DNA of 64,000 nt from Umbelopsis ramanniana AG. Its lineage: Eukaryota > Mucoromycota > Umbelopsidomycetes > Umbelopsidales > Umbelopsidaceae. The DNA is taken from NCBI RefSeq assembly GCF_025399195.1, contig NW_026252091.1, forward strand, positions 372,001 to 436,000, in the 5' to 3' direction. How positions within the stretch are numbered: the stretch's first letter is position 1; the number at the start of each line of letters is the position of its first letter. The translations under genes and the position numbers were made by a program. This document shows, piece by piece, positions 52,040 to 54,522 of the stretch. The notes under the pieces were generated by a model. It had not been told where the DNA came from, searched no databases, and was given only the letters and a program-made list of their open reading frames with translations.

Positions 52040-54163
52040 ATGAAGTCGATTACAGTTTTGAGCCCTTTGGCATTCGCCGTTTTAGCCAGTGGATACACTT
52101 TGTATTCAGATACCACCACTGTCAACCTTAACGCCTCGCTGGCCAGCTTTGCTCCAAGTGGGCTCTACATTGGTGCCGCCATTAGTGATCAAAGCTCCTC
52201 TGATCCAGTCACTGATCCTGCTCTGCTCGTCAGAAAGGACTATAACATGTATGTCGCGGAAAACAACTGTAAGTACCGCATATCTTTATGCATAGCTTAA
52301 ACAGATGGAAGAAATGCTAATCATATCGACTCGCTACTAAGGTAAATGGGCTGCCACCGAACCCTCCCAAGGCACTTTCGATTACTCGGGTTGTGACGCT
52401 GCTCTCAACTTCGCAAAGTCGGTTGGTGCCACTTTCCGCGCGTAAATATTATTTCAATACCAGCCTTGCATATTTTTATGATTTTAGTACTCATTCTGCT
52501 ACTCACTTGTTTAAACCACCATTTCTGGTTACAGTCAGTAAGTGACAAAAGTTCAATGCCAAGGAGTCTTTCGAAATGTTCAAGTACTGACAATATTCTT
52601 TTATAGCAACCTTTGCTGGGGTTCGTACAACCCATCGTGGCTGGACTCGGGAAGTGTAAGTCTCAGAAGATATATTTGAAAGACATCGTGCCGACAAATC
52701 ACTAATGCTGTTACCATTATCAGTTCAGCGGTACTCAGCTTTCATCCATTTTGACCAACCATATTAAGAATGTAGCTGGTTATTATGCTGGAAAGGTCTA
52801 TGGCTGGGGTAAGTCTACTTAACATTGGCAGGCAGCAAACTTTGGTATTGATGAAAGATGATTAACCATTTTTTACCATAGATGTCGTCAACGAAGGTAT
52901 ACCCATTACTTGAAGCACCGGTCGGAAACTTTAGCGCTTAACCATTTTATTACAGCTGTTGCCGATGATGGATCCTCAACACCAAACCTCAAAGCCAGCA
53001 CTTGGTACCCTACCCTCCCCAACTTCATTGGTAAGTAAATTATGGAGATTTACAACTGCACTCTTATGAAGTGGTAATTTTTAACATCCATCACCCTTAG
53101 ACGTTGCTTTCCAAGCAGCCAGAGCAGCCGACCCTAAGGCCAAGTTGTTCTACAACGACTACTCTGCTGAAGCCTGTGGACAAGGTACGTTTACAAGCCC
53201 TATTATGAGATGTTTATCAACTTGATTTATACTAAGCACCAAAAAATTATAACAGCTAAATCCGATGCCGTTTATGCTTTGGTGAAGGATTTGAAGACTC
53301 GTGGAATCCCTATTGACGGTATTTATGAAGACCACACAGTTTCAATTTCTTTATTGATTATATCCCTAACTCATTCTTAATATTCAAGGTGTTGGTCTCC
53401 AGATGCACATTAACACTAACGCCACCGGCTACATCACTCGCTCAACTGTTGGTTGCAACATCAAACGCTTGGGTGCTTTGGGACTTGAAGTCCATATCAC
53501 TGAAATGGATGTCCGCTGCCGAGCAGGTGCTAGCGATACTTGCGATCAACGACTCAAGGCCTATGTGGTAATTATTGAAAATTGAAGGGATACGTACATA
53601 GACCTTGAAGTAAACACAGCTAAAAAAAATTGATTTACCCCACCTTTTAGTATCAAACCGTGCTTCTTGGTAAGTCATCGGCCTCACAAAGGAATATGGC
53701 CCTGATCTACATCTTTTCTAAGACTTTGCGAAATTACAGCTTGCCTTGACAATCCTGGTGTTTGCAAGGGGTTCTTGACCTGGGGGTAAGTTGTGTCTAG
53801 CATTAACATATAAATTTAGAGATATTAGCTGTACTGATGAAATGATCAATAGCTACACCGACAAGTACACATGGCTATCAACATTCCAAAATCCTGATGT
53901 AAGGGAATCATCTATTTCCATCAGATTGTTTTAGATATGTTCTGACTTTCGTTTGTATAGAATGTCGACCCTGCCCCTCTATTGAACGACATAAATGGAA
54001 AGCAAGTTGGTGAGTGATAGCAGGACGATCGAAGGAAGCGACAATATGACTTCACGCGAATGACGACCAACCTTTTAACTTTTTTTTTTGTTATCAGTTG
54101 CTTGGAATGAATTCCAGGCCGTTCTCAAAGCTGGCACTGGTGCAACTACTACCACCTCGGCAA

Positions 54164-54200
<37 letters not shown>

Positions 54201-54522
54201 ATCAACCAAAACCACTACTTCCAAGACTACTACTCAACCCACTACCACAACCACTACTGCCACTTCGACAGCAACTGGTGCATGCGCAGTAAGTGAAAGC
54301 AGACAGATTATATAAACCTTTTTCGCAAGTACTTATTGAACTGTTTTAGACTATGTGGGGCCAATGTGGAGGCATCCAATTTACAGGACCAAAATGCTGT
54401 TCCGCCGGTACATGCAAATACCAGAACGATTGTAAGTGAAATTTAAAAAGTTCGTTGCTCTCCAAAATGAATGATCTTTCTAAACGTGATGTAATTTGAT
54501 AGATTATTCTCAGTGTCTGTAA
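52040..54522 (+). CDS. Secreted GH10 endo-1,4-beta-xylanase with C-terminal CBM1
   Basis: A 17-exon gene, 444 residues, exon lengths summing to 1335 nt. A signal peptide (MKSITVLSPLAFAVLASGYT) precedes the GH10 (beta/alpha)8 barrel. Landmarks are NNCKWAATEPSQGTFDY, FRAHNLCWGSYNPSW, YGWDVVNEAV (acid/base Glu), GVGLQMHINT, VHITEMDVRC (nucleophile Glu) and CKGFLTWGYTDKYTWL. A Thr-rich linker encoded by an ACT repeat leads to a CBM1 cellulose-binding module (MWGQCGGIQFTGPKCCSAGT, ending YYSQCL). It cuts xylan in plant walls outside the cell. Unusually small exons of 3, 15, 19 and 20 nt occur, two of them at catalytic-site motifs. A TATA box is 49 bp upstream. Confidence 0.96.
52535..52537 (+). 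other. 3-nt micro-exon (TCA) in the xylanase
   Basis: GGTTACAG|TCA|GTAAGTGA. The previous exon ends in GC (52441) and the next starts with C AAC (52607). GC+T, CA+C, AAC gives Ala-His-Asn, restoring the conserved GH10 histidine in F-R-x-H-x-L-x-W. Skipping it stays in frame but deletes that histidine. Confidence 0.8.
52882..52896 (+). other. 15-nt micro-exon encoding DVVNE of the xylanase
   Basis: CCATAG|ATGTCGTCAACGAAG|GTATAC. With the preceding G (52808) and following CT (52956) it reads Asp-Val-Val-Asn-Glu-Ala, the acid/base motif of GH10. Confidence 0.9.
54169..54198 (+). repeat. (ACT)10 coding microsatellite in the xylanase linker
   Basis: Ten pure ACT units code for Thr within a longer Thr-rich linker. 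They may vary in length between strains without breaking the frame. Confidence 0.9.

Follow-up and report, generated by a model that had tools for sequence, protein, structure and literature searches.

The 64,000-nt stretch of DNA analysed here (the window) carries, at 52040–54522 on the + strand, a gene for which we built by hand a model of 17 exons and 16 introns, with a spliced coding sequence of 1335 nt that specifies 444 residues and contains a single, terminal stop codon. The translation belongs to the Pfam families PF00331 (GH10; 290.8 bits against a cut-off of 22.1) and PF00734 (CBM1; 44.4 bits against a cut-off of 20.6), and judged by these domains the product is a GH10–CBM1 xylanase of predicted activity. 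Key GH10 residues are present, namely E160 and E273 (which we take to be the catalytic acid/base and the nucleophile, respectively), N159 immediately before the acid/base, H241 of QMH, R109 and W115. H111 is present only when the three bases TCA at 52535–52537 are read as an exon. The features relevant to this reading are as follows.

52040..52268, + strand: exon 1; start codon and an N-terminus that looks like a secretion signal, judged by eye
52342..52441, + strand: exon 2; ends in ACT TTC CGC GC (T F R A-), with the weak donor CGC-GTAAAT
52442..52534, + strand: intron 2, 93 nt; branch-point-like TACTCAC and acceptor GGTTACAG
52535..52537, + strand: exon 3, the putative micro-exon TCA; base 3 of GCT (Ala110) and bases 1–2 of CAC (His111)
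52538..52606, + strand: intron 3, 69 nt; donor GTAAGT, branch-point-like TACTGAC and acceptor TTTTATAG
52607..52655, + strand: exon 4; starts C AAC CTT TGC TGG, completing His111 and continuing N-L-C-W
52724..52808, + strand: exon 5 of the hand-built model
52882..52896, + strand: exon 6, 15 nt; supplies VVNE of WDVVNEA, with Glu160 in the position of the catalytic acid/base
52956..53030, + strand: exon 7 of the hand-built model
53101..53184, + strand: exon 8 of the hand-built model
53256..53318, + strand: exon 9 of the hand-built model
53389..53567, + strand: exon 10; carries Glu273 (TEMDV) in the position of the nucleophile
53651..53669, + strand: exon 11, 19 nt; YQTVLL region
53740..53785, + strand: exon 12 of the hand-built model
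53853..53898, + strand: exon 13 of the hand-built model
53961..54009, + strand: exon 14 of the hand-built model
54098..54288, + strand: exon 15; end of the GH10 domain and a Thr-rich linker
54350..54431, + strand: exon 16; bulk of CBM1
54503..54522, + strand: exon 17; end of CBM1 (SQCL) and the stop codon TAA

Three internal exons of this gene are thus shorter than 20 nt (exons 3, 6 and 11). Six-frame searches, which could miss a diverged gene built from short exons, returned no other GH10-domain match in the 22.8-Mb assembly, and four other places in it match only the C-terminal linker/CBM1 part of the xylanase. Across the whole window (1–64000), ARAGORN run with the bacterial code found no tRNA genes, and there was no Rfam match at the gathering score.

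The gap between exons 2 and 4 (52442–52606) measures 165 nt, which the original prediction had described as about twice the usual intron length. For this gene the description is accurate, as its other 14 introns span 59–88 nt with a mean of 70. The gap contains GGTTACAG-TCA-GTAAGTGA, and with TCA taken as an exon two introns remain, of 93 and 69 nt, the longer of which exceeds all of the other 14. The immediate borders, TTACAG-TCA-GTAAGT, provide a canonical AG before the exon and GT after it, with both introns of viable size. When TCA is included, the joint reads GCT CAC AAC (A-H-N) and the spliced translation becomes FRAHNLCWG, which restores the GH10 pattern R-x-H-x-L-x-W. When it is omitted, the joint reads GCC AAC (A-N), giving FRANLCWG with the frame kept and only the histidine lost. 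Both outcomes are those that had been predicted, and the Pfam GH10 score is 278.4 bits for the form that lacks the histidine as compared with the 290.8 bits obtained with it.

With respect to other ways of joining these exons, we enumerated parses that use GT or GC donors within 52410–52599, AG acceptors within 52440–52639, introns of at least 40 nt and no more than two introns. Within this set, exactly one two-intron parse restores R-x-H-x-L-x-W, and it is the one that uses TCA; no single-intron parse does so. Specifically, 12 single-intron parses, with GC donors and shifted sites included, are in frame and free of stops, and none of the 12 supplies a histidine between exons 2 and 4. The best-scoring member of this group is the single intron 52442–52606.

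The residue in question is nearly invariant. In an alignment of the query with the best 120 of 5004 protein matches, the check that the original prediction had called for, the column of His111 holds histidine in 119 of the 120 homologues. R109, W115, N159, E160, H241 and E273 are each found in 120 of these 120 sequences and K78 in 119. A regular expression detects the motif in 114, and by alignment five of the six that it misses do have the histidine. Histidine also occupies the matching place in all four solved structures that were aligned, out of 152 matched. We take this residue to contact the sugar in subsite -1, as had been proposed, and our literature search on that particular contact returned nothing useful.

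The two best protein matches both come from Umbelopsis, and on this ground alone the source was taken to be an Umbelopsis-like member of the Mucoromycota. The two differ at the position of the histidine. The gene model of Umbelopsis sp. AD052 (P0001) is the nearest relative among the matches listed, with an identity of 91% in the search and 96% in the alignment, and it is the sole protein among the 120 listed that has no histidine in this column. In a stretch of 26 residues spanning the joint, YSGCDAALNFAKSVGATFRANLCWGS, it does not differ from the window gene translated without TCA. The model of Umbelopsis sp. PMI_123 (P0002; 79% in the search and 83% in the alignment) does have the histidine, as FRGHNLCWG, so that the strains of this genus compared here, through the protein models of two only, comprise one with the residue and one without. 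The AD052 model retains what the 15-nt and 19-nt exons encode and lacks the residue of the 3-nt exon, which is what would be expected of a predictor unable to place an exon of 3 nt. Moreover, three bases preserve the reading frame, so a gene model that omits them raises no error. The AD052 model seems, on these grounds, to have missed the micro-exon, but it could instead have been built from transcripts, and skipping would then be real in that strain.

In terms of splice signals, we relied on a model trained on 945 putative introns drawn from 264 kb of the genome under study, for which introns of 48–110 nt above a minimum score were admitted (median 75 nt, 5–95% range 52–106); simple ORF-based harvesting had yielded just nine introns and was replaced by this set. 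Because the set is confined to 48–110 nt, introns of 93 and 69 nt are ordinary by its measure, while the rarity of a 165-nt intron lies outside its reach. The scores themselves are approximate, since the self-trained model was seeded by 14 introns of the xylanase gene, its training sequence took in the window, and the percentiles rank each site against others that the model had itself selected. On this approximate scale, the exon-2 donor of intron 2 stands at the 3rd percentile, its acceptor at the 49th and TACTCAC at the 81st, and intron 3 has its donor at the 57th percentile, TACTGAC at the 97th and its acceptor at the 99th. The acceptor and branch-point scores of intron 3 are the highest among the 16 introns of the gene.

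We then asked how often such an arrangement arises by chance. When the gap was dinucleotide-shuffled 100,000 times, with the first 6 and last 14 bases fixed and introns of at least 48 nt required, a single shuffle produced an AG-NCA-GT whose acceptor, donor and branch point all scored no lower than those observed, and the predicted presence of splice signals on both sides of TCA is accordingly borne out at a quality beyond chance. The bare pattern, irrespective of quality, is common (3,798 shuffles, about 4%). Likewise, 523,200 real positions (264 kb, both strands, with the gene masked) contained 147 bare AG-NCA-GT sites, of which one had both splice scores as good and none had a comparable branch point too. 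The bare pattern is therefore insufficient, and conviction comes from the quality of the signals, from a placement that yields two introns of normal size and from the exact repair of a nearly invariant motif. The same caution applies to TTACAGNNNGTAAGT, which is not enriched genome-wide, with five matches in 22.8 Mb as compared with four for a reversed control. Read by eye as candidate micro-exons, the other four matches were rejected: those in C88 and C95 look like ends of coding exons, the minus-strand match in C21 looks like a terminal exon, and the plus-strand match in C21 would leave an upstream intron of 25 nt from the nearest donor-like site. Given these readings and the count in the control, the motif alone is non-specific. 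At about position 1500 of L042, a Zn2Cys6-like stretch (MRCRELKKKCDNGTPSCARC) was seen 3′ of a match to TTACAG-CAT-GTAAGT whose upstream intron, counted from the nearest donor-like site, would be only 25 nt, and for this reason the match was set aside as a candidate micro-exon.

These results bear on whether the gap might instead be one long intron, with AG-TCA-GT a coincidence and an enzyme that truly lacks the histidine. Such an intron is in frame, stop-free and the best-scoring of the 12 comparable parses, its joint matches the AD052 model, and the bare pattern turns up in about 4% of shuffles. Nonetheless, we consider this very unlikely, as it would remove a residue found in all but one of the homologues aligned while the other key residues stay intact, and it would leave as accidental a gap of about twice the gene's intron length that divides into two ordinary introns with branch-point-like motifs and signals of rare quality. 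The status of TCA as an exon, whether constitutive or regulated, appears very probable from the sequence, even allowing for the weak exon-2 donor, the frequency of bare AG-NCA-GT and the lack of enrichment of TTACAGNNNGTAAGT, each of which counts against it.

A separate matter is whether TCA is used in every transcript. In one scenario, the on/off switch raised in the original prediction, it would be included under some conditions (for example, on xylan without glucose) and skipped under others, the skipped product being a full-length protein that lacks the histidine and is probably inactive or misfolded. Skipping is possible, given that it preserves the frame and that exon 2 ends in a weak donor; this donor, facing an exon-4 acceptor and a branch-point-like motif that both score highest in the gene, would favour some skipping. 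The AD052 model corresponds to the skipped form, and there are precedents for regulation of this type. The Xlr2 gene of Trichoderma virens likewise has a fungal micro-exon that is missing from the JGI model and is tied to xylanase control, although Xlr2 encodes a transcription factor, its exon is 20 nt long, and its glucose-dependent inclusion has been demonstrated, as described in PMC11121469. Cold-induced exon skipping has also been described for a potato invertase gene, in a source that does not name the exon (PMC8483784). On the other hand, exons this small are described as commonly missed by gene models (PMC8831610, PMC12940212), which would explain the AD052 model without regulation; the weak donor fits constitutive splicing equally well; and the predicted RNA fold of 52400–52660 is unremarkable (z -0.70). 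We therefore regard regulated inclusion as unlikely. Equally doubtful is the more specific proposal of a single-residue switch, by which the only GH10 gene detected in the genome would yield, according to carbon source or temperature, a xylanase that is active or else a protein that binds cellulose and lacks the histidine.

The reading that we favour takes TCA to be a real coding exon of 3 nt in a nuclear gene, constitutively present in most, if not all, productive transcripts. We infer this with good, though lesser, confidence than exon status itself, and a transcript basis for the AD052 model would count against it. Constitutive inclusion is the simplest account because the six-frame searches of the assembly found no second GH10 gene and the remaining conserved residues are all in place. 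With respect to mechanism, intron definition would allow each flanking intron to be recognised separately, at a normal size. The strong intron 3 (GTAAGT, TACTGAC and the best acceptor of the gene) would probably leave first, fusing TCA to exon 4 and thereby creating an ordinary 52-nt exon downstream of intron 2. The weak exon-2 donor would then be joined last, to this fusion, as intron 2 leaves. Removal of intron 3 before intron 2 is probable, but less certain than either the status of TCA as an exon or its constitutive use.

A further possibility, compatible with constitutive inclusion, is that retention of intron 2 or intron 3 ends much of the RNA early and so tunes the amount of enzyme. A stop begins at the second base of the intron in either case (RA-stop for intron 2 and RAQ-stop for intron 3). 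Immediate stops of this kind are trivial, however, for phase-2 introns that begin with GTAA; intron 12 behaves alike, and 15 of the 16 introns carry an in-frame stop if retained. We accordingly judge a role in unproductive splicing to be most improbable.

Returning to the proposed micro-exon, its size can be compared with those reported elsewhere. The original prediction ranked it among the smallest exons possible, which is fair for 3 nt, although exons of 1 nt have been published (PMC4674806, PMC12940212). One of these is in Arabidopsis APC11, before which the smallest known examples are given as 6 nt for a constitutive exon and 3 nt for an alternative one (PMC4674806). The other is in the CYP621A P450 genes of Fusarium, where it is described as backed by transcript reads and at least 20 orthologous genes (PMC12940212). 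The Fusarium case shares with the xylanase a nuclear fungal gene, an ultra-small exon within a conserved enzyme motif and faulty gene models, and differs in that omission of 1 nt breaks the frame, which is how that exon was noticed, whereas skipping 3 nt silently drops one residue (PMC12940212). In plant invertase (GH32), a 9-nt micro-exon that is unannotated in rice and maize similarly encodes part of a conserved glycoside hydrolase motif (D-P-N/D-G/A), in other organisms and another enzyme family (PMC8831610, PMC4674806). For the potato invertase exon, removal of the second intron is reported to precede that of the first (PMC4674806), the same order that we propose for xylanase introns 3 and 2. 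Micro-exon misannotation is described as widespread in plants (PMC8831610).

Exons of the same 3-nt length are reported from animals, namely in Drosophila homothorax, Drosophila troponin T and rodent NCAM; those of homothorax and NCAM are alternatively spliced, and as far as they are described in that source they encode no active-site residue (PMC7392893). Fungal mitochondria also have 3-bp exons, which are not spliceosomal (PMC12308204). Among the papers listed, our searches on tiny fungal exons found no report of this exon, and those on GH10 xylanases none that joined them with a micro-exon, spelling variants not having been exhausted in either case. Given that exons of 1–3 nt are known elsewhere, including the 1-nt exon of Fusarium, the xylanase micro-exon belongs to a known kind. 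What is unusual is the combination of a nuclear, fungal exon of 3 nt that holds most of one active-site codon, together with its apparent loss, without a frame error, from the model of the closest relative among the matches listed.

If confirmed, TCA would represent a very small spliceosomal exon of a nuclear gene in a Mucoromycota fungus, containing most of the codon for an active-site residue. It would also mean that a gene model that is seemingly intact, in frame and full-length could depict a probably dead enzyme, and misleading models of this type matter for enzyme mining and annotation. Finally, with one residue linked to one activity, the exon would offer a clean natural reporter for how the spliceosome handles junctions that lie three bases apart.

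Two other protein models in the alignment showed local irregularities. At the position of the 19-nt exon (53651–53669), PMI_123 P0002 reads AYVKIQIAACLDY where the window gene reads AYVYQTVLLACLDN, which looks like a model error. The GH10 protein of Endogone sp. (P0005) has an insert, IYLFICFFCLNSIDSPFYFQ, within the GH10 domain that resembles an intron retained in the model.
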